Shown in pieces: positions 2,420 through 20,007 of a stretch of DNA of 64,000 bases. A program made the translations under genes and the position numbers. This DNA is from an uncultured Eubacterium sp. (GTDB taxonomy: Bacteria > Bacillota > Clostridia > Lachnospirales > Lachnospiraceae). The notes below the pieces were generated by a model that searched no databases, was not told the origin of the DNA, and saw only the letters and a list, made by a program, of their open reading frames with translations. The DNA lies in assembly GCA_910580075.1 (NCBI GenBank), contig CAJTVR010000002.1, positions 32,281-96,280 of the forward strand, written 5' to 3'. How positions within the stretch are numbered: position 1 is the first letter of the stretch; the number at the start of each line of letters is the position of its first letter.

Positions 2420-5206
2420 CTAGTCAAAATCCATAATTACTTCTGTAGGAACTCCTTCCCCGGCACCTGGCTGCGGTGCACCCGGCTGCTGGCCGGTGCC
2501 TTCTCCCGGCGGCGTATCCGGCTGGCCAGTGTCTTCTCCCGGTGCACCCGGCTGCTCTCCGGCCTCTCCTCCCGGGCCGTCCGGCTGCCCTGCATCTTCT
2601 CCCTGCGGCGTGCCCGGCTGCCCGTTTTCCGGGTCTGTAGCTGTACCGCCTTCTTCCGGTGTATCGCCGGACGGTGTCTGCGGCGGTATCTGGGTCTGGC
2701 TTGTGTGAATATTGCAAATATTATTCAGGCTGCCTGTGTACAGATAAGGCCCGTCCTCAGAATCCGGCGAACCTCCGATTATACGTACGGATGACGCAAG
2801 CACACTTCCCGGACAGTACGGCCCTGCCATACGCCCGGATGACGCACAGACACGGATCGATGCATGATGCACACACTCTTCTTCCGGTACAGAGCCTTCT
2901 GCAAAAAATTCTGTTACTGTCATATCACCGCGCGGGTCGCGGGTACAGATGCCTGATTTTACAGGCATGCCTGATTTTTTACATACTTCAGCCGTAATAA
3001 TGCCGGAAGGCATTTTAAATTCCTTATTTTTCAGCCCCTCATGTATGCGGCTCATCACCGCACGCCAGATCATCTTCGGATAAGAAGTCGTACCGTCGTC
3101 CTGCGGTGTATTATCGTCATAGCCTCCCCATACTACAAGACTGTAATAAGGTGAGAACCCGGCAAATAAAGCGTCTTTGCTTTTCGTTGTCGTCCCGGTT
3201 TTTCCGGCAAGCGTCATTCCTTCAAAAGCGGCCTGGCGTCCTGTACCTGTCGTTATCGCCTCCTGCATCGCATTCGTCAGCAGCCAGGCTGTGGTTTTCT
3301 TTAAGGCTCTGTGCTTTTGGGGCTGGTTATCAATCAGCACGTTACCGTCATGGTCAATAATCTTTGTATACAGACGCGGCTTGATGTAAGTGCCTTTATT
3401 AGCAATGGCTGCATAAGCGGCCGTCAGTTCCAGATTGGTCACGCCCTTTGTAATGCCTCCCAGCGCAAGTGCTTCCGTACGGTCCTGATCCGTTAATGTT
3501 GTAAATCCAAATTTTTCGGTCAGGTAATCATATCCGGTGTCGATTCCGATATCCGAAAGTGTCTTTACTGTTACGACATTAATAGACTGCTTAATTGCTT
3601 CCCGAATTGATGTAAATCCCGTATATTTATTATTATAATTTTTTAACGGCGTGCCGTTTGAATATGAGTAAGGCGCGTCATCTTCAACCGAAGCAAGCGT
3701 CATCTGCCCGGTATCGATTGCAGGTGCAAATGCTGCGAGCACTTTGAAGGTCGAGCCAGGCTGGCGCACGCTGTCTGTTGCGCGGTTCAGTGTACGGTTC
3801 GCTGTCTTTTCCCCGCGTCCGCCAACCATTGCTTTTACTTCTCCTGTCTTTTGGTCTATCACTGTAAGCGCTGCCTGGGGTTGTACGGTAAACGTAACTG
3901 TCTGTCCGTTTTCCGGCACAGTGTCTCCCTCTTCTAAAATATCATTCTTGTATTTCTCGACGGCTGCCATTGCTTCTTCCTGAGAATTAAAGTTAATTGT
4001 ATATGACTTGTCCGCAGACTGGTAATATGCCAGCATTGTCTGTTCGTCATAGTATTTAAACTCGCCGTCTGGTTTTTGTATTGTCAGCGTCATGGAAAAG
4101 GAAGTTTTCGGACTGGCCGGATAATTTGCCATGTTATTAACTTCCTCATCACAGATAGCCTGAATGTCCGGGTCCTGCGTAGAATAAATCGTAAGCCCGG
4201 TATTGTATAGCCTCTTATATGCTTCTGTCTGCGAACAGCCCAGTACATTCATCAGATCTTCGATCACCTGCTCTGTCAGCGCATCGTCAAAATAAGAATG
4301 GACGCTGGACTTGTCCTGCTGTCTTGCATTGACTTTCTGTATCCGTCCGTATACATTGTCATCCATGGCTTCATCGTACTGCTGCTGGGTAATTAAACCC
4401 TGCTCCTGCATATCGCCCAGCACTTTTTTTCTCCGTTTACGGTTATCTTTCGGATGCGTAATCGGATTATAGCCGGACGGGTTTTTCGTAATTCCGGCAA
4501 TGACCGCAGATTCTGATAATGTAAGCTCTGATACGTCTTTGCCAAAATACCGCCTGGATGCTGACTGCACTCCGAGTGTATTCTGTCCCAGGTTCACAGT
4601 GTTCAGATAATTCTCTAAAATCCAGTCTTTGGATTCGACCTTTTCTAACTGCAGGGCCAGATACTGTTCCTGTATTTTGCGTTTAAAACGGTCTGCCTGG
4701 GATTTTTCAGCCGTCCATGTCGTAAATACATTATTTTTCAGCAGCTGCTGCGTAATCGTGCTGGCACCTTCGGAAAAATGAAAACCCGCTGCAATGCCTC
4801 TGATGCCCGCACGGATAATTCCTTTGATATCTATGCCGTTGTGCTCCCGAAACCTGGCATCCTCGATTGCAATAAATGCATTCTGCAGATGAATGGGTAT
4901 TTCATCCAGTGTTACATAAACCCGGTTTGATCCGGAAGCCACCAGTGTAGCAGTCGTATTTCCTTTCGAATCCAGAATGGTAGACAGATATCCCGTCGGT
5001 GAAGCGTCAATCTCATCTATGCCAGGCGAAGCTGACAGAATACCCTGGTATGCGCCGTATCCTGAACTTGCAATGCAGACTGCGAGCGCTATGACAGCAA
5101 CAAAGCAAAACTCAAAGAAAACCGTAATCAGTTTCCTTCCTATTTTGCCCCGTTTTGCTATAGCCGCTTTACGCTTTTTCTTCGTTCCTTCCTTTCCGAA
5201 ATTCAT
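2420..5206 (-). CDS. Class A penicillin-binding protein (glycosyltransferase/transpeptidase)
   Basis: Bifunctional cell-wall synthase that polymerises lipid II and cross-links peptidoglycan outside the membrane. In order it shows a basic cytoplasmic start, one membrane anchor (about residues 27-50), a GT51 domain with EDARFREHNG and GASTITQQLL, and a transpeptidase domain with the active-site GSTFK, SIN and KTGTT motifs. The last 100 or so residues are a Pro/Gly/Glu/Gln-rich tail (PGEGTGQQPGAP type), a low-complexity wall-spanning extension common in Firmicutes PBP1. The length (928 aa) is normal for PBP1A-type proteins. The ATG at 5206 follows GGAGGT. It appears monocistronic, with its own promoter at about 5337-5365. 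Confidence 0.93.
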   Translation of the reverse strand: MNFGKEGTKKKRKAAIAKRGKIGRKLITVFFEFCFVAVIALAVCIASSGYGAYQGILSASPGIDEIDASPTGYLSTILDSKGNTTATLVASGSNRVYVTLDEIPIHLQNAFIAIEDARFREHNGIDIKGIIRAGIRGIAAGFHFSEGASTITQQLLKNNVFTTWTAEKSQADRFKRKIQEQYLALQLEKVESKDWILENYLNTVNLGQNTLGVQSASRRYFGKDVSELTLSESAVIAGITKNPSGYNPITHPKDNRKRRKKVLGDMQEQGLITQQQYDEAMDDNVYGRIQKVNARQQDKSSVHSYFDDALTEQVIEDLMNVLGCSQTEAYKRLYNTGLTIYSTQDPDIQAICDEEVNNMANYPASPKTSFSMTLTIQKPDGEFKYYDEQTMLAYYQSADKSYTINFNSQEEAMAAVEKYKNDILEEGDTVPENGQTVTFTVQPQAALTVIDQKTGEVKAMVGGRGEKTANRTLNRATDSVRQPGSTFKVLAAFAPAIDTGQMTLASVEDDAPYSYSNGTPLKNYNNKYTGFTSIREAIKQSINVVTVKTLSDIGIDTGYDYLTEKFGFTTLTDQDRTEALALGGITKGVTNLELTAAYAAIANKGTYIKPRLYTKIIDHDGNVLIDNQPQKHRALKKTTAWLLTNAMQEAITTGTGRQAAFEGMTLAGKTGTTTKSKDALFAGFSPYYSLVVWGGYDDNTPQDDGTTSYPKMIWRAVMSRIHEGLKNKEFKMPSGIITAEVCKKSGMPVKSGICTRDPRGDMTVTEFFAEGSVPEEECVHHASIRVCASSGRMAGPYCPGSVLASSVRIIGGSPDSEDGPYLYTGSLNNICNIHTSQTQIPPQTPSGDTPEEGGTATDPENGQPGTPQGEDAGQPDGPGGEAGEQPGAPGEDTGQPDTPPGEGTGQQPGAPQPGAGEGVPTEVIMDFD

Positions 5207-9075: not shown

Positions 9076-9750
9076 TTATCCCTGCGGTCTTAATACATAC
9101 CCCACCCCTCTGATTGTCTGTATCAGCTTTGTTTCATATGGGTCATCAATTTTTTTGCGCAGATAACGGATATACACATCAATGACATTAGAATAACTGT
9201 CATGATCCATATCCCATATATTCGCCTCTATCTGTTCTCTGGAGACTACAATATTCTGATTGCGGATTAAATAAAGCAGCACAGAAAATTCTTTTGGTGA
9301 AAGACTGATATGATCATTCCCGCGCCGTACTGTATGTTCGTTGCAGTCTACGGTCAGTTCTCCGCAGCGGTAAATATTTTCACGCACTCCGGCTTTTTTA
9401 CGTGTCATGGCCCGCACTCTTGCAGACAGCTCCTGAAACGCAAACGGCTTTACCATATAATCATCCGCCCCTATATCCAGACCCTCTACGATATCATCAA
9501 TATGACTGCGGGCAGATAAAAACAGCACAGGTGTCTGGACGCCCTGTGTACGCGCTTTTTTCAAGACCTCAAGACCGTTCATTTTAGGCAGCATAACATC
9601 TAAAATCGCTCCGTCGTACTCTTCCATCGTCAGGTAATCATAAGCACTTTCTCCGTCAAAGCATGTGTCCACCAGATATCCTTCTGACTCCAGCTCTTTT
9701 TTAATAATATGATTCAAATCTTTTTCATCTTCTACAAGCAGTATCTTCAT
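9076..9750 (-). CDS. OmpR/PhoB-family response regulator
   Basis: DNA-binding regulator of a two-component pair. The receiver domain (about residues 1-115) shows the acidic EDEK pocket, the phospho-acceptor Asp in GAILDVMLPKMNG, and conserved Thr/Ser and Lys in SARS and VKPFAF. The C-terminal winged helix (about 125-222) has the usual LSPKEFSVLLYLIRN and VDVYIRYLRKKID-like stretches. 224 residues is standard. The ATG follows AAAGGAAA. The kinase gene follows with essentially no gap. The target genes are unknown; the sulfation cassette is downstream on the same strand and could share the transcript. Confidence 0.92.
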   Translation of the reverse strand: MKILLVEDEKDLNHIIKKELESEGYLVDTCFDGESAYDYLTMEEYDGAILDVMLPKMNGLEVLKKARTQGVQTPVLFLSARSHIDDIVEGLDIGADDYMVKPFAFQELSARVRAMTRKKAGVRENIYRCGELTVDCNEHTVRRGNDHISLSPKEFSVLLYLIRNQNIVVSREQIEANIWDMDHDSYSNVIDVYIRYLRKKIDDPYETKLIQTIRGVGYVLRPQG

Positions 9751-9891
9751 CTTACAGTATTTCCTTTGCCTTCATTATTATATCCTTAATAATGCCGCAT
9801 TCCCTGGTACAGAAAATCCTGCTGTTTCTATGAACCAGCCTGCCTGAATTTTTCCGCTTCCCTGCTGCCTGTGCACAGTCTGCCTGAATTT

Positions 9892-10986
9892 TTATGATTC
9901 ATCCAGCAGCGTTGTGCGGCACAGCGCGAAAAATCCAGGTGCTATTTTGCGCAGCCCGGATGCTGTCAGGTAAATCACAGCTGTCGTGCATAGAACTGCC
10001 AGCACATATTTTGGATACAGATTTGCATAATTCTGTCCCGGATACATACGCACAAGTGCATGACTCCAGTAATTGTGCGACAGATATACCGGAAAACTGA
10101 TTTTTCCGAGGAAGTATATCATAGGTTTATTAAAAAAAGATGAAAGCAGGCTCTTGCCGCTGAAGGTTACAACGACTCCGGCTGCAAATAAAAGCAGCAT
10201 AACAAAATCCATCTGGGAACCTTTATGCGCATAAGACCAGGCGATTACCCCAAAATAACAGCACAGTTCCAGCATTGTCAAAAGTGCTTCTGCGAGTTTT
10301 GACAGCCTCAGATCTTTTATTTTCTGACAGATTCCCCAGCAGATGACGCCCATGCACAGTTCTCCAACCGCACGCAGCCAGCCTTTATAGCAAAATCCAA
10401 GCCAGTCCGTCGGTCCCCGCAGGTCTCCGACATTTTTTGAAAGATACCCTAGCGCTGCAATTGCAAGAACCGGTGCCCATACATTTACAAAGACGTCCCT
10501 GTTTTTCAGGAATAAAGGCACGAGCACGAGCATCGCTAACAGCATCGCAGATATATACCACGCTGCCGGATTTGCCTTAAATCCTTCCAGGCCGGACTCC
10601 CGCAGAAAGAACATGTCCCATACGCCTGTCATCAGATCTTTGATCAGAGCAGCTGGAGTGACATTTTTCTTTGCAATATGCTGTACTACAAACCCGATTC
10701 CCCATGCAATGAAAATCTCCGGACAGAGACCTTTGATTTTATGCAGCATAAAATTACGGCTGTCTCTTCCTACCAGAATTTCATCTTCTTTATAACGGGA
10801 AATGGAAGCAGCCATCAGGTAGCCGGAAACAAGAAAAAAGAATTCGACCGCAATCGCTGCACCGACAAAAGGGGTTGTTTTAATTTTAGTCAGATTCGAG
10901 GAATGAAACTGCACAACCAGAATGGAAAAAATAAATTTCCAGAAATCGATAGCGCCGTTACGTGTCTTTGTCTGTCTGTCTGACAT
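9892..10986 (-). CDS. Acyltransferase family 3 membrane protein (OafA/YrhL-like)
   Basis: Integral membrane O-acyltransferase expected to acylate a surface polysaccharide or glycolipid. The protein begins with the family's typical stretch NGAIDFWKFIFSILVVQFHS, has about ten hydrophobic segments, and includes the FFLVSGYLMA motif of acyltransferase_3 proteins. There is no extracellular SGNH domain, and about 364 residues is the usual length without one. I prefer the ATG at 10986 (MSDRQTK) because AAGGAGA lies 9 bp upstream; the ATG at 10995 abuts that site. Acceptor unknown. Confidence 0.85.
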   Translation of the reverse strand: MSDRQTKTRNGAIDFWKFIFSILVVQFHSSNLTKIKTTPFVGAAIAVEFFFLVSGYLMAASISRYKEDEILVGRDSRNFMLHKIKGLCPEIFIAWGIGFVVQHIAKKNVTPAALIKDLMTGVWDMFFLRESGLEGFKANPAAWYISAMLLAMLVLVPLFLKNRDVFVNVWAPVLAIAALGYLSKNVGDLRGPTDWLGFCYKGWLRAVGELCMGVICWGICQKIKDLRLSKLAEALLTMLELCCYFGVIAWSYAHKGSQMDFVMLLLFAAGVVVTFSGKSLLSSFFNKPMIYFLGKISFPVYLSHNYWSHALVRMYPGQNYANLYPKYVLAVLCTTAVIYLTASGLRKIAPGFFALCRTTLLDES

Positions 10987-11118
10987 GATATGCATTCTCC
11001 TTATTAGTTTAGTATGGAGGCATTATAGCAAAAAATCACAGAATCCGCAATCATTATTGCAGCCGGATTTGTGCCGGATTTCCTGGAATGGATGAGAATT
11101 TCCAGGCAGACGAAAAAA

Positions 11119-11160
11119 AGACCGCCGCACTAAGCATGTTCTTAATGCGACAGCCTCTTT
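11119..11160 (-). terminator. Intrinsic terminator of the flagellin-csrA unit
   Basis: Read on the minus strand, GAGGCTGTCGCATTAAG, a 6-nt loop, then CTTAGTGCGGCGGTCT is followed directly by a run of T. It is the short form of the dispersed hairpin family, placed about 35 bp after the csrA stop. Confidence 0.85.
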
Positions 11161-11195
11161 ATAGTTCGAATCCGGGGGACCGGGCAGGACGTCTG

Positions 11196-11477
11196 CTACT
11201 GTCCCTGCCGGTCTGCCTTCTGACTTTTCATTTTTCCGGCCAGGTGTTCCCGCCGCAGAATGCTGACAATTTCTTTCTGTGCCTCTTTGGATATTCCCTT
11301 TTCAGCATAGTAAGACGTCTTTGCCCTGCTGCCTCCTGCACTGCTCCTGGCAATGTTTATTTCCCTGGGCGCTTCTACAAGCACATGGATATTGTTTGCA
11401 GAACCGCCGGAAAAAACGACTTTTACTTCTTCGCCAATCCGAAGATAATCACCTGGTTTTAATGTAAGTTTCAGCAT
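11196..11477 (-). CDS. csrA: CsrA-family translational regulator
   Basis: RNA-binding protein that blocks or remodels translation by binding GGA-containing leader sequences; in Bacillus subtilis its main target is flagellin mRNA, countered by FliW. The sequence starts MLKLTLKPGDYLRIGEEV and contains IHVLVEAPREINIAR, which carries the conserved region of the RNA-binding face. At 93 residues it is longer than the usual 61-75, with a basic C-terminal extension. GGAGGT precedes the ATG at 11477. It lies 52 bp downstream of the flagellin stop on the same strand, so the two are probably co-transcribed, which would give negative feedback. FliW is not in the window. Confidence 0.88.
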   Translation of the reverse strand: MLKLTLKPGDYLRIGEEVKVVFSGGSANNIHVLVEAPREINIARSSAGGSRAKTSYYAEKGISKEAQKEIVSILRREHLAGKMKSQKADRQGQ

Positions 11478-11529
11478 ATATAACCTCCCTGTTTTCCCGG
11501 TTTTACCCTGTCCCCGTTATTCTTTTATG

Positions 11530-14046
11530 TTAGCCAAGCAGAGAAAGAACGCCCTGTGTAGACTGATTTGCCTGTGCAAGCATTGCCTGGCCTGCCTGTG
11601 CAAGAATGTTATTCTTGCTGTATTCTACCATTTCAGATGCCATATCTGTATCACGGATGCGTGATTCTGCAGAAGTTGTATTCTCAACAACGTTATCCAG
11701 GTTGGCAATTGTATGCTCTAAACGGTTCTGGATCGCACCCAGTGAGCTTCTCTGTGCAGAAACTTTCGAGATTGCATCCTGGATTGCATCAATCGCATAA
11801 GTTGCTCCTGTTCCGTCTGCATCAGATAAATCAAGCCCTTTAATACCCAGATAAGATGAATTCATCGTCTTGATGTCTACCTGGATTTTATTTGTCATGT
11901 CTGCGTCTGCGCCTACATGGAGATTGAAGCTCAGTGTTTTAGCAACTGTTGCAGAAGCTGTTGTAATGTTAAATACATTCTCTGCTCCAGCGCCTGCTGC
12001 ATTTTCTAATTCAGCTGCTTTTGCTGCAGTTATAACTGTTTTATCATCTGTTACAGCTATTTTTGCTCCATCCACGGCTACACCTGCATCTGGTGTAAAC
12101 TCAACAACTGCACCTGCTGCAATCAAAGCTTCCATATCTGCTGCCGTCTTGTCAGCGCTTGTAGTATTGTTTGTAGCATGTGTCAGATTTGCAGTATTTG
12201 TGCTGTTATATACAGCATCTCCGTTTCTGTCTGTAAAAATATACAGTGTAGTTGTTCCGTCAGAAATGCTTCCGACTGCCTTAAGAGCAGTACCATTACC
12301 GCCTGCTGAAGCGCCGGCTGCTGCGGCTGCTGCAGCAATCGCATCCGTCACTGCTGTCTTTACATTATCTGCCGTATCGCCAATTGTATACGCTGTGCCG
12401 TCAATTGTTACTGTGTCGCCAGCTTTATAATCAGCTTCTGTCTTTTCTGTTCCTGCCGCTGCTGCGTTTTCTACTTTTGCAGTGCCGTTTGTATCACCGA
12501 TCTGGTTTGCTGCAAGCAGTTCCTTCTTTGCCAGCTCATAAGCTTCTTTGGCAGTGATTTCATTATCTGCCCTTTCAGCTGCATCATAATAAAGTTTTTC
12601 TCCTTTATCATAAGCTGCCTTGATTTCTTCTGCACTGAGCGCCTCTTTGCCGCCTTTTGCGTATACCGGCTTATCAACAGTTACATTTGTAACTTCGCCG
12701 TCTGTCATGGCAGGAGTCGGTGTTGTTGTACCGCCATCCACGTCTGCATTTTCAATTACAACAGCTGCTGCACCGCCTATTTTTGCTTCTTCGATCGTAA
12801 TCTTGTCATTTGCTTCTGTGACTACCCAGTCGTCGCCAAGATCTGTCTGTAACTGTGCTGCTATGTCCGCTACAGTTGCAAAATTAGCCTCTGTATAGGA
12901 TTTTCCGCCGATATCTACTGTACCGTTAGTGGTCCAGCCTGTCAGGTCAATCTCGCTCTTTGCTTTTGTGCCTTCTGCTTTGTAATCCTCAGCCTTTACT
13001 TCATTTGTCTGGCTGACAGCGCCTGGCGTTGAGTAAAGTTCTTTTCCCTGCTTATATGCTTCTGTGATTTCCTCAGCAGTCAGCTCTTCTTTGCTGTTTT
13101 GTGCATACAGCTTTGTCTTTGCTTCTACGCTGTCAAGAGATCCGTCTGTCATAACAGGTGTCGGTGTTGTTGTACCGCCATCCACGTCTGCATTTTCAAT
13201 TACAACAGCTGCTGCACCGCCTATTTTTGCTTCTTCGATCGTAATCTTGTCATTTGCTTCTGTGACTACCCAGTCGTCGCCAAGATCTGTCTGTAACTGT
13301 GCTGCTATGTCCGCTACAGTTGCAAAATTAGCCTCTGTATAGGATTTTCCGCCGATATCTACTGTACCGTTAGTGGTCCAGCCTGTCAGGTCAATTTCAC
13401 TCTTTGCTTTCGTGCCCTTTACTTCATAATCTCCGTCCGGGCCTTCTACGGCAGCCTTTTGTTCTGCATCGTCAACAATCTTATAATTTTTGCCGCCGAT
13501 ATTTACAGTGTCGCCTGTCTTCAGCTCATCCATTACAAAGGTTGCTGTACCGTTGCCGTTATCTGTCAGCTTTCCTTTTAAACCTGCATCATGTGCCGCC
13601 ATTTTCACATTTTTTGTGCCATCGTCACCCTTTAACAGGTAGATTTCATTAAATTTTGTAGTCTCTGCAACACGGTCAATTTCGGTTGCAAGCTGATCGA
13701 TTTCTGCCTGAATGGCATCACGGTCTTTCTGGCTCTCTGTACCGTTTGCTGCCTGGGTTGCCAGCTCGTTCATACGCTGGAGCATGGAGTGCACTTCTGT
13801 CAGTGCGCCTTCTGCAGTCTGTACGGAAGATACGCCGTCCTGAGCATTCGTAGATGCCTGGGAAAGTCCGCGGACCTGTCTTCTCATCTTTTCCGAAATC
13901 GTAAGTCCGGCTGCATCGTCTGCTGCACGGTTGATTCTGTAACCAGATGAAAGTTTTTCTGTGGATTTTGACTGCTGCCCGGATGTGATTCCTAAGAGCC
14001 TGTTTGCGTTCATTGCCTGTAAATTGTGCTGTACTACCATTGACAT
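11530..14046 (-). CDS. hag: Flagellin with a very large, internally duplicated central domain
   Basis: Flagellar filament subunit. The conserved D0/D1 N-terminus ([32 protein letters not shown], about residues 1-150) and C-terminus ([35 protein letters not shown]) are intact. Total length is 838 residues, against roughly 270-500 for many flagellins. The excess is a central acidic, Thr/Ala-rich region that should form the exposed D2/D3 face. Part of it is duplicated at a 444-bp (148-residue) offset. GGAGG at 14055-14059 precedes the ATG. No promoter is evident in the 125 bp between the start codon and the left inverted repeat, so expression probably depends on the invertible segment upstream. 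csrA follows. Confidence 0.93.
12717..12951. repeat. Flagellin internal direct repeat, copy 1 (235 bp)
   Basis: As read base by base, 12717-12951 is identical to 13161-13395, an in-frame offset of 444 bp. It encodes the segment containing [20 protein letters not shown] and [20 protein letters not shown]. Similarity continues, less perfectly, on both sides. Confidence 0.9.
13161..13395. repeat. Flagellin internal direct repeat, copy 2 (235 bp)
   Basis: Second copy of the 235-bp segment at 12717-12951. Apparent complete identity implies a very recent duplication, or ongoing conversion or length variation of the exposed domain. Confidence 0.9.
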
Positions 14047-14053
14047 AAAATGT

Positions 14054-14063
14054 ACCTCCTTGT
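14054..14063 (-). promoter_or_regulatory. Probable CsrA site overlapping the flagellin Shine-Dalgarno
   Basis: The minus strand reads ACAAGGAGGT, 9 of 10 matches to the CsrA consensus ACARGGAUGU, and contains the flagellin ribosome site 8 nt from the ATG. Binding here would block initiation. Confidence 0.65.
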
Positions 14064-14105
14064 GGTCTTAATTGTCTGCCGCTGCCTTCCTTTGCGCGGC
14101 TTTGC

Positions 14106-14121
14106 GGGAATTCCGTTTCCC
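14106..14121 (-). promoter_or_regulatory. Leader hairpin with GGA in the loop (candidate CsrA site)
   Basis: On the minus strand GGGAA-ACGGAA-TTCCC forms a 5-bp stem with GGA in the 6-nt loop, a typical CsrA recognition presentation. Confidence 0.5.
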
Positions 14122-14139
14122 TTTTTTCTAGTTTCCTGT

Positions 14140-14170
14140 CCGGATCTGCGCCTTATCCTGCAGGATCCGG
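14140..14170 (-). promoter_or_regulatory. Leader hairpin with AGGA loop (candidate CsrA site)
   Basis: On the minus strand CCGGAT(C)CTGC pairs with GCAGATCCGG, a 10-bp stem with one bulge. It presents AGGATAAGGC in the loop, about 80 nt upstream of the Shine-Dalgarno site. The two-site arrangement recalls the B. subtilis hag leader. Confidence 0.6.
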
Positions 14171-14201
14171 AATGCAACAATTTGTTATAAACTGTTGCAT
14201 T
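14171..14201. repeat. Left inverted repeat (IRL) of the invertible segment
   Basis: A 31-bp site made of 13-bp arms (AATGCAACAATTT and AAACTGTTGCATT) around the 5-bp core GTTAT. Its reverse complement matches the site at 14881-14911 at 30 of 31 positions. The arm-core-arm layout is that of a tyrosine recombinase crossover site. The core also contains TGTTATAAA, an extended -10-like sequence reading into the recombinase gene. Confidence 0.88.
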
Positions 14202-14223
14202 GTCATAAGGAGGAAATCAGACT

Positions 14224-14802
14224 ATGGGAACGGCTCAGCCAATCAAAAACGAAGAAGCACTCAGAGAATTTACCGATTATTACAGGCTCACACGGCCTTC
14301 TGCAAGAAACTATGCACTTATCATCTTTTCATTAAATACCGCGCTTCGCATCAGTGACCTTCTTGCCTTGAAATGGGAAAACATTTATGACTTTGAATCA
14401 GAAAAAATGACGAAACATTTATGCATACGCGAGCACAAGACCGGAAAGATTTCCGTAATCGCTCTAAACAGCCGGATTCACGCTGCCGTATATTTTTATA
14501 TGGAAGAACGCTGCCCGGCAAAAGGAGAATTTCTATTCAGCAGAAATACTTCCCACACCGAACCGCTCAGCCGTACACAGGCATACCGGATTATCCGTAA
14601 AGCAGCCGCCGAAACCCTGCATCTGCCAAATATCAGCTGCCATTCCATGCGCAAGACATTCGGCTATCATGCCTGGAAACAGGGCACGCCGCCAGCGCTT
14701 CTAATGGATATATACAATCATTCCACTTATGCGCATACCAAACGCTACCTCGGCATAGATCAGGATGAACGGGATTCTGTATTTCTGGAGGTTATGCTGT
14801 AA
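14224..14802 (+). CDS. Small tyrosine recombinase (site-specific invertase)
   Basis: Predicted to recombine the two 31-bp sites that flank its own gene. The 192 residues correspond to the catalytic domain. They include the first catalytic Arg in ALRISDLLAL, the beta-hairpin Lys in HKTGK, the HSMRKTFGYH box (His-x-x-Arg) and the nucleophile Tyr in HTKRYLGI. A SAM-like core-binding domain of normal size is missing, as in FimB/FimE-type invertases. AAGGAGG precedes the ATG at 14224. It is the only gene in the invertible segment, so it flips with each event and is divergent from flagellin in the present orientation. The family is certain; its action on these sites is inferred. Confidence 0.9.
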   Translation: MGTAQPIKNEEALREFTDYYRLTRPSARNYALIIFSLNTALRISDLLALKWENIYDFESEKMTKHLCIREHKTGKISVIALNSRIHAAVYFYMEERCPAKGEFLFSRNTSHTEPLSRTQAYRIIRKAAAETLHLPNISCHSMRKTFGYHAWKQGTPPALLMDIYNHSTYAHTKRYLGIDQDERDSVFLEVML

Positions 14803-14836
14803 CTGCAAAATTTTTCAAAAAAATACGAAAAAACAC

Positions 14837-14863
14837 TAAAGTATTCCTGCATCAGTCCGATAT
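14837..14863 (+). promoter_or_regulatory. Sigma-28/sigma-D flagellar promoter inside the invertible segment
   Basis: TAAA at 14837-14840, 16 bp, then CCGATAT at 14857-14863, an almost exact match to the B. subtilis sigma-D consensus (TAAA-N15-GCCGATAT). It points right, out through the right repeat and away from flagellin. The predicted start is near 14870. Confidence 0.8.
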
Positions 14864-14880
14864 ATTAGGTGTAAATAAAA

Positions 14881-14911
14881 AATGCAACAGTTTATAACAA
14901 ACTGTTGCATT
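14881..14911. repeat. Right inverted repeat (IRR) of the invertible segment
   Basis: A 31-bp site with perfect 13-bp arms (AATGCAACAGTTT / AAACTGTTGCATT) around the core ATAAC, the reverse complement of the left site's core. Opposed asymmetric cores predict inversion and not deletion. A T run follows at 14910-14915. Confidence 0.88.
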
Positions 14912-14978
14912 TTTTGTTGATAGTATTTTAATAGTATACAATATTTATCCGGTATTTAAACAGTGCGTGCGAAAAAAC

Positions 14979-15030
14979 AGGGCTGCCACATAAATCAAAA
15001 CAGTTACGTTTCTCTTAATGCGGCAGCCCT
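14979..15030 (-). terminator. Dispersed hairpin terminator downstream of the AAA-ATPase gene
   Basis: AGGGCTGCC...GGCAGCCCT stem; on the minus strand a run of six T follows, so it ends the 15084-16652 transcript. It would also be the first barrier met by a transcript from the sigma-28-like promoter in the present orientation, though without a T run on that strand. Confidence 0.75.
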
Positions 15031-15083
15031 GGAAAACCTTATGGGTATAAAATTTCTACGGCACATGCATGCTCTTTTGTTTT

Positions 15084-16652
15084 TCAGTCATAACTAATTC
15101 CGGCCGCTAGAATCCTTCCTGTATATTTTGCTTTTTCTCCAAGTTTCCCTTTCAGGCGCAGTGCATAATTTTTATTTTTAATCTGTGAAACGGCCTCCTG
15201 CGGAGTACTGTCTATTTTCAGCTCCAAAATAATGGCATCATCATTTTTATGTTCCGGATAAAAAATAAAATCCACGTATCCTCTTGCAGCTTTATCTTCC
15301 CGTTCCACCCGGTACTTATCGCGCGCAGCCAGATAAACAAGATTCACTACAGCCGACAGTTCAATTTCACTGTTGTATGAAAAAACAGGAGATTCCGTAT
15401 CATGTGCAAAATTCAGTATTTCTGCCATTGTACTGGTATTTCCGGCAAGTGTGGCTGTAAGCATTTTCTCTGATTCGATTGCAGGACGATGGACATATCC
15501 AAGGCTGCTTTTGGACATCAGCAGCTCCTGAAACTGTTCCATCAATTCCCTGTTAGGTATAAAAACGGAACCGTCTTCGTATGTCAGCAAACCGTATACC
15601 ACCATCGCAGAATAAATCTGATTTTTCGTATTTAATTCAGCGGATGTAGCAGCATATCCCTGAAGTTTTACTGCGATATGTTCTCCGGCAATCATCAGTA
15701 CCAGGTCGTCACGAACATCACGGATATTGTTACGTATATAATAGAAAATCTCATCATAAGGTCCGGAATTCGTCCAGTAACTGCTAATCTGGTTATCGGT
15801 CAATGCACATATCACTGAACGCGGATTATACAGCCGGATTCCCGCTGCAGTATGATATCCGTCATACCATTCAGCCAGTTCCTGCCGTGTAATTTTTGCA
15901 TCAGGAACCGAATTCTGGTAAGAAGCAAAAAGCCTGTCTGTTTCCGCATCAGAAAATCCAAAATATTCGCTGAACTTTTCTCTGGATGACATGTCGTATT
16001 CCTGAAACATGTTAATCTCTGAACCGCTGGAATATTTTGCTATAGGCAGAACGCCCGTCATATAGGCCAGTTCCACATAGGCCCGTCCTTTTAACAGATC
16101 CCGCAGAAATTCCAGATAACTCTTTTTGTTTTCGCCGCTGACAAAATTTTTATGAAAAATCGCGTCCCACTCATCGATAATAAATATAAACCTGGTTCTT
16201 GTTTTTTCAAAAATCAGCTGCAGATTATCCCATACTGCTTCCCCGATATCAATCTGATACTGTGGGTATGCTTCTGCCAGATCTTTGTTTATTCCGTTTT
16301 GTATTCGCCCGATATAGCGTTCGTAGCTGCTGCAGTTTCTGGGAAGCCTGCTAAAATCAATATAAATAACATCCCATTTGTTTAAATGCTTATGATATTG
16401 TTCATAACCGGCTATGTTAAGCCCGTCAAACAAAGACTTTCCGTCAGCAGCTTTTCCATAAAAAGCCCCCAGCATCGTTGCCATTACGGTTTTCCCAAAC
16501 CGCCGCGGCCTGGTGATGCACAAATATTTCTGGCCGTCTGAAGCAGACTGAATAACCTGTGCAATTAAATCCGTTTTATCTGCAAAAAACCTGGTACCGG
16601 CAAGTTCTTTATACGATTCATACGGAGCAATGCTGTTTAGAAAAATTCCCAT
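15084..16652 (-). CDS. AAA-ATPase with C-terminal PD-(D/E)XK nuclease-like domain
   Basis: 522-residue protein of the AAA-ATPase-like/PDDEXK_9 family, abundant in gut anaerobes and of unproven function. The N-terminus has the family opening FFADKTDLI, the Walker A-like TRPRRFGKTVMATML, and the Walker B FIFIIDEWDAIF at about residues 145-156. The C-terminal domain has the nuclease-like core GYVDFIFYPEHKNDDAIILELK, with the Asp and Glu-x-Lys of the PD-(D/E)XK fold. A GGAAAAGGAA stretch precedes the ATG. It is a lone gene with its own terminator. It could be a mobile-element relative or a defence gene, but nothing here decides that. Confidence 0.85.
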   Translation of the reverse strand: MGIFLNSIAPYESYKELAGTRFFADKTDLIAQVIQSASDGQKYLCITRPRRFGKTVMATMLGAFYGKAADGKSLFDGLNIAGYEQYHKHLNKWDVIYIDFSRLPRNCSSYERYIGRIQNGINKDLAEAYPQYQIDIGEAVWDNLQLIFEKTRTRFIFIIDEWDAIFHKNFVSGENKKSYLEFLRDLLKGRAYVELAYMTGVLPIAKYSSGSEINMFQEYDMSSREKFSEYFGFSDAETDRLFASYQNSVPDAKITRQELAEWYDGYHTAAGIRLYNPRSVICALTDNQISSYWTNSGPYDEIFYYIRNNIRDVRDDLVLMIAGEHIAVKLQGYAATSAELNTKNQIYSAMVVYGLLTYEDGSVFIPNRELMEQFQELLMSKSSLGYVHRPAIESEKMLTATLAGNTSTMAEILNFAHDTESPVFSYNSEIELSAVVNLVYLAARDKYRVEREDKAARGYVDFIFYPEHKNDDAIILELKIDSTPQEAVSQIKNKNYALRLKGKLGEKAKYTGRILAAGISYD

Positions 16653-16792
16653 TTTTCGCCTATTCCTTTTCCTTTCAGATATTTACCGGAATCCGCCCAG
16701 CCTGAACAATCCACAGCCGGCTGTTACAGAATATTATACCATAGTATCAGACTGGCTGAACATTTATTTTCTATCATCATATGAATTTTCAT

Positions 16793-17353
16793 TCAGCCAC
16801 GCAGTCTGGCACGTTCTTTCACAATTTCAAGAAAATCCGCTTTCACATCTTCGTACTTTGAGGCATCCCGCAAAACCGCTGACGGATGGTACACGGCCGT
16901 CAGCGCGCAGTTTTTCCTATATGTCCATGTGCCATGCTGTCTCGTGATTTTATAATCCGGCGAGATAATACGCTGTGCGGCGACACGGCCGAGGCAGACG
17001 ATGATCGCGGGTTTTAAAAGAAATGTTTCATATTTTAAATATGGAAAACATGCATCTTTTTCTTCGTCTTTTGGATCACGGTTGCCGGGAGGATGGCATT
17101 TTATAATATTGGTTATGTAAATTTCCTCTCTGCTCAGACCGCAGTCCTGTAATAGATGATCTAATATTTCACCGGAACGTCCCACAAACGGCATTCCTTC
17201 CTCATCTTCCTGCCCTCCCGGAGCTTCGGCAATGAGCATAATATCAGCCTGGTAATTTCCACGTCCCATAACAGGCCTGTGCCTGGTCCTGCTCAGAGGA
17301 CAGCAGACACAGTCAGCGACGTGCTTTTCTATATCCTTCCATGTATACTGCAT
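16793..17353 (-). CDS. Type 4 uracil-DNA glycosylase ([4Fe-4S])
   Basis: Base-excision repair enzyme that removes uracil from DNA. The N-terminal cysteines CVCC and the later NIIKCHPPGNRDP (Cys ligand and family motif) fit the iron-sulfur UDG family. AEAPGGQEDEEGMPFVGRSG is the uracil-binding motif region, and YHPSAVLR is the C-terminal active-site motif. The ATG at 17353 (MQYTWKD) is preceded by AAAGGAGA, giving 186 residues; an upstream in-frame start at 17377 lacks a site. It lies next to the AAA-ATPase/nuclease gene, but a gap of about 140 bp suggests an independent unit. Confidence 0.9.
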   Translation of the reverse strand: MQYTWKDIEKHVADCVCCPLSRTRHRPVMGRGNYQADIMLIAEAPGGQEDEEGMPFVGRSGEILDHLLQDCGLSREEIYITNIIKCHPPGNRDPKDEEKDACFPYLKYETFLLKPAIIVCLGRVAAQRIISPDYKITRQHGTWTYRKNCALTAVYHPSAVLRDASKYEDVKADFLEIVKERARLRG

Positions 17354-17379
17354 AAACTCTCCTTTGTAATTTTCCACAC

Positions 17380-17500
17380 CTGTGAATGCCTGCCTGGATT
17401 CCGGCCAGGCTGCCGTTAATCACTTTGTCAGATATTCTTTATCACACCCGCGAATATCTGCTCGGATTCTGGCCAAACTCCCGTTTAAACGCTTTGAGAA
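17380..17500. repeat. Degenerate duplication of the araC 3' end
   Basis: The last 50 or so bases of the AraC gene (about 17445-17500, with GGATTCTGGCCAAACT) are imperfectly repeated just downstream (about 17380-17430, with GGATTCCGGCCAGGCT). The downstream copy is out of use after the stop codon and also forms a small GCCTGG...CCAGGC hairpin. Confidence 0.55.
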
Positions 17501-18293
17501 AGTTTGAATAATCCCGGAATCCGCACCAGAGACAGGCATCCATAACCGTACTGCCTGTGCGCAGCATGTCCCTGGCGATAATCAGCCTTTTTTTCATAAT
17601 ATACTGATACAGCGTCAGACCTGTAAACTGCTTAAACTGTCTTCCCAGATAATACTTGCTTGTGTAAAATATGGAAGAAAGCAGATCCAGGGATAATTCT
17701 TCTGTAATATGGTCATTAATATAAGTGATCATCTGATTGATTTTTCCGTTTTCTGTCATGTCCTGCTTGACAGAATCCGGTGCGTCATAATAGGCCCTCG
17801 AAACATGGACTAAAAATTCTGTCAAATAAGCCGTTGTAAGTGCCGCGCTGCCAGTCTGCCCGCTGTTTTTGGCCCTGGACATCTGGATGCAGAGCTGCTT
17901 TAGCTGGGCAATGCTCTGGCTGTCAGGACGTACCAGCCTGTGGTCGTTGATGGCCGCATCCGTAAAACAGGATGTAAAATCTTCGTCAAAGAAATACTGC
18001 ATATATTCAAAAAAATCGTTGGCAAGCCAGATTACAATCCGCTCGTAAGGCTTGCCGGGATGCACATCCGAACAGTGCAGGTCTGCGCTGCTGGTTAAAA
18101 GGATATCTCCCGGCCTTAGTTTATAGTTCCTGCCTTCTATGACATAATTTACATTTCCGGACAGGAAAAAGAAAATTTCATAAAAAGAATGCTGGTGAGA
18201 CTCTACTTTAGGAGGAGTTTCATTGTAAAAATGGTGAAATTCGTAAAACCGTTCTTGCATAATCTGACTTGGATTAAATTTTTCTTTGTACAT
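17442..18293 (-). CDS. AraC-family transcriptional regulator
   Basis: Predicted sugar-responsive activator of the divergent TRAP/uronate operon. The N-terminal cupin-like sensor has HQHSFYEIFFFLSG and YKLRPGDILLT (about residues 35-75). The C-terminal double helix-turn-helix (about 185-283) has LDLLSSIFYTSKYYLGRQFK and the signature GFRDYSNFLKAFKREFGQNP. 283 residues is standard. The start at 18293 has only a weak ribosome site. The divergent arrangement with the transporter genes 180 bp away supports the proposed role; the ligand is inferred to be a uronate or a derivative. Confidence 0.9.
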   Translation of the reverse strand: MYKEKFNPSQIMQERFYEFHHFYNETPPKVESHQHSFYEIFFFLSGNVNYVIEGRNYKLRPGDILLTSSADLHCSDVHPGKPYERIVIWLANDFFEYMQYFFDEDFTSCFTDAAINDHRLVRPDSQSIAQLKQLCIQMSRAKNSGQTGSAALTTAYLTEFLVHVSRAYYDAPDSVKQDMTENGKINQMITYINDHITEELSLDLLSSIFYTSKYYLGRQFKQFTGLTLYQYIMKKRLIIARDMLRTGSTVMDACLWCGFRDYSNFLKAFKREFGQNPSRYSRV

Positions 18294-18419
18294 AATTCAC
18301 AAAACTCGCTTTCCAGTATTAACTATTCTGCATGAAAATATGATATTTTCCTACTATTATATAGCAATATTCACCATATTTCAAGCAGTAACTGCCACGT
18401 ATTTCCATTCAATACCTGT

Positions 18420-18425
18420 TATAAT
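18420..18425 (+). promoter_or_regulatory. -10 element of the TRAP/uronate operon
   Basis: A perfect TATAAT 50 bp before the first gene, with no recognisable -35 at 16-18 bp upstream, which is what an AraC-activated promoter looks like. Confidence 0.45.
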
Positions 18426-18475
18426 GCTGTTTAGCAGAACGGTTTTGCCAAAAAACGCAAAAGGAGGAACAACTT

Positions 18476-19507
18476 ATGAAACTACATTGCAGGATGCTGG
18501 CTGGACTTCTTAGTATCGGAATGCTTGCGGCATCACTTTCCGGCTGCGGTGCGGGCGGAAATGATCACCGCCGGATTATCCGCATCGGTCACAACCAGGC
18601 TACAGACCACCCTACAAATATTGCACTGGTGGCTTTTGAAGAGTATATTGAGAGCAAACTTGGGGACAAATACAATGTAGAAGTATACCCCAGCGAACTG
18701 TTAGGCTCTCAGACGGACATGGTTCAGCTGACACAGACTGGAGCTATTGATTTTTGCGTGGCAAGCAATTCCATTCTGGAAACATTTTCGGAAAATTATA
18801 CACTTTTTAACCTGCCATATCTGTTTGCTTCTGCAGAAGCATACCACATGTCCATGGATGACACAGAAATTGCAGACCCGATTTTTGAGTCAACCAAACA
18901 GGCTGGTTTTGAAGCTGTCACATGGATTGATGCAGGCACCCGGAATTTTTATACCGTATCGACGCCGATTGAAACTCCGGCAGATTTAAAAGGCCTGAAA
19001 ATCAGAGTACAGCAGTCGCCTACTAATGTCGAGATGATGCGGCTCTTAGGCGGTTCTGCAACACCGATGGGATTTGGCGAAGTATACACAGCTCTGCAGT
19101 CGAAAGTAATCGACGGCGCAGAAAACAATGAAATGGCACTGACCTCAAACGGTCACGGCGATGTGTGCAAATATTACTCTTATGACATGCATCAGATGAT
19201 TCCTGATATTTTAATTGGCAACTGTGCATTTTTAGACGGACTGCCAGAAGATGAACGTGCTATATTTGAGGAAGGTTTTGAACTTGTAAACAGCGTAGAA
19301 CGTGAAGAATGGGTCAAAGCAGTAGAAGCTGCAAAAAATAAAGCAGAAAATGAGCAAGGTGTTTCTTTCCTGTATCCGGATACGAAGCCGTTTCAGGAAA
19401 TATGCGAATCCATGCACGCTTCCATGTTAGAGCAGTATCAGGACCTGAAGCCGATTTATGAAAAGATTCAGGAATACAACGCACAGTATCCGTCAGAAGC
19501 AGAATAG
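18476..19507 (+). CDS. dctP: TRAP transporter solute-binding lipoprotein (DctP family)
   Basis: Extracellular binding component of a TRAP uptake system driven by an ion gradient. It has a lipoprotein signal peptide with lipobox LSGC (Cys24), then the DctP fold with IRIGHNQATDHPTNIALVAF, the ligand-binding segment LKGLKIRVQQSPTNVEMMRL, and GGSATPMGFGEVYTALQSKV. The Arg of KIRVQ normally binds the substrate carboxylate, which suits a uronate. AAGGAGGAA precedes the ATG. It is first in an operon with dctQ, dctM, uxuA and an SDR dehydrogenase, spaced by 0-46 bp. Confidence 0.93.
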   Translation: MKLHCRMLAGLLSIGMLAASLSGCGAGGNDHRRIIRIGHNQATDHPTNIALVAFEEYIESKLGDKYNVEVYPSELLGSQTDMVQLTQTGAIDFCVASNSILETFSENYTLFNLPYLFASAEAYHMSMDDTEIADPIFESTKQAGFEAVTWIDAGTRNFYTVSTPIETPADLKGLKIRVQQSPTNVEMMRLLGGSATPMGFGEVYTALQSKVIDGAENNEMALTSNGHGDVCKYYSYDMHQMIPDILIGNCAFLDGLPEDERAIFEEGFELVNSVEREEWVKAVEAAKNKAENEQGVSFLYPDTKPFQEICESMHASMLEQYQDLKPIYEKIQEYNAQYPSEAE

Positions 19508-19521
19508 GAGGTATCAGTTTT

Positions 19522-20007
19522 ATGAAAGCATTTCGAAATGGGATTACACAAATCTTAAATGTTCTGGCTGGAATCAGCTTTCTTGCAATGGTAATTCTGA
19601 CCTGCTGGCAGGTACTGACCCGGTATGTATTCCAAAACCCGTCCACATGGTCAGAAGAGCTGGTAAGCTACCTGTTTGCATGGATGAGTCTGTTAGGCGC
19701 TTCTTTAGTCACCTGTGAACGCGGACATATGAATATTCCGATTGTTGTGGAACAGTTTTCCAAACCTGTACAAAAAGGCCTGAACTGCCTGGGAGAGCTC
19801 ATCGCATTTTTATTCTCTGCAGCTATCCTTGTATTCGGCGGTGTTCAGATTACAGCCCTGGCTATGGGACAGATGACTTCTTCGCTTGGCGTGCCGATTG
19901 GAATTTTTTATGTCGTGCTGCCGCTTTGCGGTATTTTAAATATGATTTATACAGTTTTAAACATGATTGATATTATACAGGATCAGACAGAAAAGGAGGC
20001 GGCGTAA
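19522..20007 (+). CDS. dctQ: TRAP transporter small membrane subunit (DctQ)
   Basis: 161-residue protein with four predicted membrane helices, the small permease subunit. The family signature appears as LTCWQVLTRYVFQNPSTWSE followed by ELVSYLFAWMSLLGAS. AGGAGGT precedes the ATG, and its stop codon touches the start of dctM. It works only together with DctM and DctP. Confidence 0.92.
   Translation: MKAFRNGITQILNVLAGISFLAMVILTCWQVLTRYVFQNPSTWSEELVSYLFAWMSLLGASLVTCERGHMNIPIVVEQFSKPVQKGLNCLGELIAFLFSAAILVFGGVQITALAMGQMTSSLGVPIGIFYVVLPLCGILNMIYTVLNMIDIIQDQTEKEAA

Follow-up and report, generated by a model that had tools for sequence, protein, structure and literature searches.

The segment at positions 14171-14911 (741 bp) of the 64,000-nucleotide stretch analysed here, which we call the window, is most likely an invertible flagellin switch with its own tyrosine recombinase, a movable sigma-D-type promoter and a predicted terminator on its off side, a reading that we hold with considerable confidence. 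The segment lies beside a flagellin gene and contains, between two inverted sites, a recombinase gene and a predicted flagellar promoter. In the mechanism that we propose, the segment would be inverted by strand exchange between the two sites, catalysed by the recombinase that it encodes; one orientation would aim the promoter at flagellin, and the sequenced orientation, the predicted OFF state, would aim it away. In the OFF state the promoter would face the right site, whose two arms together with a T-run outside the segment would form an intrinsic terminator, so that the OFF transcript would end there after about 45-50 nt. Inversion would swap the outer half of the off-side site and join its inner half-site to the outer half on the flagellin side. 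The resulting ON junction would lack a T-run, its hairpin is predicted to be weaker, and transcription would continue as far as the start codon of flagellin, giving a leader of about 166 nt.

A pair of 31-bp sites had been noted in the preliminary description of this DNA, and 14171-14201 and 14881-14911 are indeed reverse complements at 30 of 31 positions. They constitute the longest inverted pair in an inverted-repeat listing of 10000-20000, and a site-derived pattern allowing up to three mismatches finds no site besides them in the window, with 0 matches in 100 shuffles. The proposed division into 13-bp arms and a 5-bp core also holds: the right site (14881-14911, minus strand), on the non-flagellin flank, is a perfect 13+5+13 palindrome, and the left site (14171-14201, plus strand), on the flagellin flank, has one arm mismatch and is without a T-run read toward flagellin. 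The site pattern had no match in virus contigs, and an Rfam scan of the window returned nothing at the gathering threshold. We infer that the recombinase acts on these two sites.

The gene between them (14224-14802, plus strand) encodes a tyrosine recombinase of 192 aa, for which PF00589 was the sole Pfam family found (E 6e-22; 78.6 bits against a cut-off of 27.1, residues 23-178). Residues R42, K72, H140, R143, H166 and Y175, which we take to be the catalytic residues R-K-H-R-H-Y of tyrosine recombinases, are invariant in an alignment of 44 sequences comprising the window protein, 35 sequences picked among the 120 matches listed of 2,436, and eight loci. The best of five structure models reached a mean pLDDT of 87.6 (69-84 for the other four); the top PDB folds for this model were XerA, the Tn1549 integrase and Xer, at 16-22% identity, and the protein aligns to residues 121-264 of a 292-aa Xer. 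FimB and FimE of E. coli are small tyrosine recombinases that invert a promoter, and the window enzyme had been described as FimB-like. This fits its single catalytic domain, its length of 192 aa and its PF00589 match, but an NCBIfam search with the recombinase passed no cut-off, and the two 'tyrosine-type DNA invertase' models, presumably FimB/FimE, gave 56.6 and 30.6 bits against cut-offs of 222 and 221. A sigma-A scan identified no promoter of the recombinase's own, with three matches where 2.8 were expected. Site cores were considered as -10 boxes, but cores such as CTGGGGGAG contain none, and the idea was abandoned.

The candidate flagellar promoter, TAAA-N15-TCCGATAT (14837-14863, plus strand), reads right as sequenced, away from flagellin and toward a convergent gene (15084-16652, minus strand) that encodes an AAA-ATPase-like protein with a PD-(D/E)XK domain. 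The sigma-D consensus is TAAA-N15-GCCGATAW, from which the promoter departs by one mismatch; its distance to the right site is 17 bp and not 18 bp. As a bare motif it is weak evidence, a looser pattern having 74 matches in the window against 72 expected; at one mismatch there are eight matches in the window (two of them overlapping) against 2.7 expected from mononucleotide shuffles. We credit the promoter because its position is kept in relatives, not because of the bare motif. The chance frequency of the loose motif would also suit an integrase relic that happens to lie beside flagellin with a spurious motif, yet the module and its geometry recur in dozens of loci, with a median promoter-to-site distance of 19 (quartiles 18-21), and the chance explanation, scarcely credible to us, is already contradicted by these comparative data. 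We favour a genuine promoter, one that sigma-D presumably uses.

The predicted target is an 838-aa flagellin with Flagellin_N and Flagellin_C domains (11530-14046, minus strand), whose start lies 124 bp beyond the left site. The fixed leader region between the left site and the start codon (14047-14170, minus strand) has AGGAGG ahead of the start, and no sigma-D match at up to two mismatches was found between flagellin and the left site. In a modelled flip the promoter comes to lie at 14245-14219 and reads left, so that transcription would begin near 14212 and the leader would measure about 166 nt; the flagellin start previously placed near 14212 therefore corresponds to the predicted transcription start after the flip, but the coding start is 14046. 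The variable region of this flagellin contains an internal duplication (12698-12987 and 13142-13431), with 279 of 290 bases identical and a period of 444 bp (148 aa). Downstream of flagellin lies a csrA-like gene (11196-11477, minus strand), which in many relatives is found between the switch and flagellin. CsrA is a flagellin repressor in other bacteria, and with csrA in that position the ON state would therefore express CsrA too.

In species genomes a scan confirmed 140 relatives, and the 80 best were retained as loci; the relatives are titled mostly Lachnospiraceae, Roseburia, Eubacterium or Acetatifactor, apart from a few MAG titles. Including further genomes, 167 recombinase copies were collected and reduced to 138 non-identical ones, copies being counted as non-identical if they differed over a 440-base stretch of the gene; some of the 138 are still near-identical, and counts per 75% cluster are therefore given as well. 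Seventy-six of the 138 were scorable, having a site pair with a promoter and, to one side, flagellin or csrA (csrA alone in two). Nine had a site pair and a side with no promoter match, two a site pair and a promoter with no flagellin within 1.5 kb, 21 a flagellin or csrA alongside with no accepted site pair within 320 bp (two cut by a contig or locus end), and 30 neither side gene nor site pair (four cut). In at least five of the 21 pairless copies a partner site lies 1.1-1.4 kb off. Four loci (L149, L037, L030 and L077) are larger switches: the partner site lies 1.1-1.4 kb past the recombinase, the segment includes an additional ORF of about 335-370 aa, and a sigma-D match still adjoins the far site. 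L132 and L141 have a site pair and a sigma-D match around a recombinase of this kind, with neither flagellin nor csrA reading away from them within 1.5 kb, and may act on another gene.

Within the segment, a sigma-D match was present in 73 of the 82 non-identical loci that have a site pair of at least 22/27 and a flagellin or csrA side, against 1.5 expected from shuffles. Such a match occurred in the fixed stretch toward flagellin in three of 74 loci at up to one mismatch (0.9 expected) and in 13 of 74 at up to two (10.4 expected). With few matches in the fixed stretch and many in the segment, the movable promoter is the only sigma-D-type promoter seen for flagellin at most loci. The module occurs in two layouts: in type A, to which the window belongs, the promoter lies past the 3' end of the recombinase gene and in the same direction, and in type B it lies ahead of the recombinase and in the opposite direction. 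Both types occur ON and OFF.

A search of related genomes for the opposite orientation had been suggested as a check, and among the 76 scorable loci we found 72 OFF and four ON (L018, L036, L041 and L058); a fifth ON locus, L048, falls below the stricter site cut applied to the 138-copy set. In the first set (the 80 loci and the window), 63 had all parts and, with L025 left out for a poor promoter call on the other strand, 57 of 62 were OFF and five ON, L048 being counted as ON here. L024, whose site frame is wrong, and L049, for which the wrong promoter was chosen, are part of this 62-locus set; L024 and L025 are without an accepted promoter in the 138-copy set. The ON cases are rare (four to five) and all are MAGs by title. 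Both orientations were found between related species. When L058 (ON) and L061 (OFF) are both laid out with flagellin to the left, their flanks align on the same strand (81% over 215 nt) but their segments on opposite strands (74% over 688 nt), and a separate alignment placed the strand change-over at the site. L048 and L067 likewise share the strand of the flank with the segment reversed. By their divergence L058 and L061 are different species, so their comparison shows an inversion since the split and not its rate.

OFF predominates in the assemblies (72 of 76, then 7 of 7 in a draw of family genomes). A recombinase promoter specific to the ON state was considered as the cause of this bias and found unsupported: inward promoter scores differed weakly between the flanks of 75 loci, and the flagellin flank had the higher ones (z 0.61 vs 0.13, p 0.03). 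The dominance of OFF would be compatible with the window copy being a locked relic that no longer inverts, and one sequence, P0010, equals the window recombinase up to about residue 125 and from about residue 126 differs as a frameshift would give, so the enzyme can be lost; judging from it, strains with a locked switch may exist. For the window itself we regard this as improbable, since its recombinase ORF is intact with all six residues present, a 99% identical sequence (P0001) represents 31 contigs, and the cores of the two sites are identical, their single mismatch lying in the outer arm, where relatives vary too. On the reading favoured here, the window segment would probably invert in its own species.

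The site cores point to strand exchange. The central 7 bp are the same within the locus in 63 of 63 filtered site pairs, over which 48 different 9-bp cores are distributed; the filter, by identity (at least 22/27) and palindromy, favours overall identity and not its placement. Core identity is 0.96 within loci and 0.44 between loci, compared with 0.92 and 0.83 for the arms. Mismatches concentrate close to the core in the outer arm, where position 7 is mismatched in 20, position 8 in 26 and position 10 in 15 of the 63 pairs, and the window's single mismatch is at position 8. Cores that match within loci in spite of 48 different cores are a mark of strand exchange. Taken together, the two orientations, the change-over at the site, the core identity and the kept promoter position support the earlier proposal that inversion would place a sigma-D promoter at flagellin. 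The region L111 contains seven flagellins, three of which are coupled to switches with like arms and unlike cores. Three others (829-1474, 2520-3172 and 9322-9966) have fixed sigma-D-like promoters about 200 bp upstream, and OFF at one locus therefore need not mean the absence of flagella. For this reason the switching of motility, put forward in the preliminary description, cannot be claimed.

A terminator-like hairpin is predicted at the off-side site, a feature new here that the preliminary description had missed. The predicted intrinsic terminator (14874-14918, plus strand) has a 20-pair stem built on the right site, with the T-run located outside the segment. Its folding energy is -23 kcal/mol (z -7.3), and its stem is by far the longest among three matches in the region (1.2 expected) in a separate terminator scan. 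Across the 76 loci the hairpin at the OFF junction was stronger than in the modelled ON state in 74 (mean -17.8 vs -9.3 kcal/mol), and a T-run of at least four within 10 nt was present on the OFF side in 64 and on the flagellin side in nine. With one locus per 75% cluster the OFF hairpin was stronger in 49 of 51, and such T-runs numbered 41 vs 3. The OFF-side T-run was longer in 67 loci, equal in eight and shorter in one; as a control, more T residues were counted beside the OFF site than 16-25 nt away from it in 50 of 62 loci, and equally many in seven. The exceptions to the pattern are L168 (opposite) and L099 (equal) in the 76-locus set, and L068 (opposite) and L024 (equal) in the 62-locus set. 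In the family draw, all seven scorable among 13 loci fitted the pattern, not all of them independent of the first set (L194 is a copy of L141, and L185 and L042 have the same site pair). In the four ON loci the T-run lay on the non-flagellin flank in 4/4, as expected if the flanks stay while the segment turns. The modelled ON hairpin of the window still amounts to -13.4 kcal/mol, so the T-run would be the main difference between the two states.

The hairpin and T-run might instead serve the recombinase, as its own terminator or as part of its recognition site, and not the shut-off of the sigma-D promoter. The type A recombinase likewise reads into the off-side site when OFF, and A/T tracts could aid binding. 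The type B recombinase, however, reads the other way, and there the hairpin is nevertheless stronger on the promoter-OFF side in nine of ten loci, although the T-run alone is less clear (at least four in 6/10 on the OFF side vs 2/10 on the other). Nor is the tract common to both sites, given the 64 vs 9 of 76 above. On this evidence a role for the recombinase seems rather unlikely to us, and we presume that transcription terminates at the OFF junction. We also considered an either/or switch, in which the OFF orientation would drive a gene on the non-flagellin side. On this flank the first large ORF is co-directional in 18 of the 76 loci, but it is convergent in 48 (eight flanks were too short and two without an ORF), the gene on this flank of the window is itself convergent, and the predicted terminator intervenes, all of which makes such a switch highly improbable.

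Of 120 family genomes drawn, 67 had flagellin and 11 the recombinase (E 1e-30 or better); flagellin was present in 10 of the 11 recombinase-bearing genomes and in 57 of the 109 others (Fisher p 0.022). With 10 of 67 flagellated genomes (about 15%) carrying the recombinase, it is a minority trait. One genome, G145, has a recombinase of the family and no flagellin match, and may invert something else. The closest of 397 sampled genomes by asnS DNA (80%) had no close recombinase relative. On balance we lean towards a broader reading, in which the module would be a tyrosine-recombinase counterpart of Hin, widespread among gut Lachnospiraceae and with a double lock (promoter turned and terminator reassembled), core addresses would let several flagellins of one genome, such as the three with switches in L111, flip independently, and populations would be mostly OFF. 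One crossover would both turn the promoter and rebuild the terminator from site halves, so OFF would be tight.

Flagella genes are among those near invertible sites in 34 species, according to an excerpt of PMC5903667. The main text of that paper contains no Lachnospir-, Roseburia or Eubacterium, that of PMC11892184 no 'flagell', and among the open-licence PMC matches listed there was no description of a Lachnospiraceae flagellin inverton, although an entry in an inverton-survey catalogue may exist. Raised antibodies against Lachnospiraceae flagellins accompany both Crohn's disease and chronic fatigue syndrome, as an excerpt of PMC11285207 states. A cis-encoded ON/OFF switch for flagellin, if true, would explain antigen hiding by flagellated gut commensals, and the ratio of junctions in metagenome reads would tell which members express flagellin in the gut, and when. 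A recombination site that doubles as a terminator would make for compact regulation, and the matched cores hint at a naturally occurring set of small recombinases that act on separate addresses.

Hin is a serine recombinase whose gene lies inside the invertible segment together with a promoter that, in one of the two orientations, drives flagellin, and the Hin switch alternates two flagellins through a repressor. By sequence, the window resembles Hin/fljBA in having a recombinase gene in the segment and a promoter for flagellin; it differs in its enzyme, whose only Pfam match is PF00589 with no serine recombinase domain, and in the predicted OFF-side terminator. The enzyme is unrelated and the layout is that of Hin. 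A recombinase in its own segment is already familiar from Hin. The Salmonella Hin segment is given as 966 bp in PMC5903667, which also gives a second precedent, a putative 844-bp fimbrial inversion of Providencia stuartii with 14-bp imperfect repeats that likewise encloses a recombinase ORF and, unlike the window, is near a fimbriae locus. In the E. coli fim switch, as excerpted, small tyrosine recombinases also invert a promoter (PMC9993118), but the target is pili and fimE lies 5' of the invertible fimS, outside it (PMC5386303). Cdi4 of C. difficile (154 bp), in the passages concerned, shares with the window a tyrosine recombinase (RecV) and inverted repeats acting over flagella, and its OFF state is silenced after initiation, a process mediated by Rho (PMC5386303, PMC7446863); it lies upstream of the early flgB operon, whereas the window has recombinase and promoter inside the segment and flagellin adjacent. 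The terminator itself resembles that of the C. difficile cwpV switch (Cdi1), for which an excerpt of PMC2784873 describes a predicted intrinsic terminator at the junction of repeat and inverted region in OFF. In the window an intrinsic terminator is similarly predicted in silico in OFF and lost in ON; however, the cwpV promoter is upstream and fixed, whereas in the window the promoter would be inside and moving, and the terminator would consist of the recombination site and a fixed flanking T-run.
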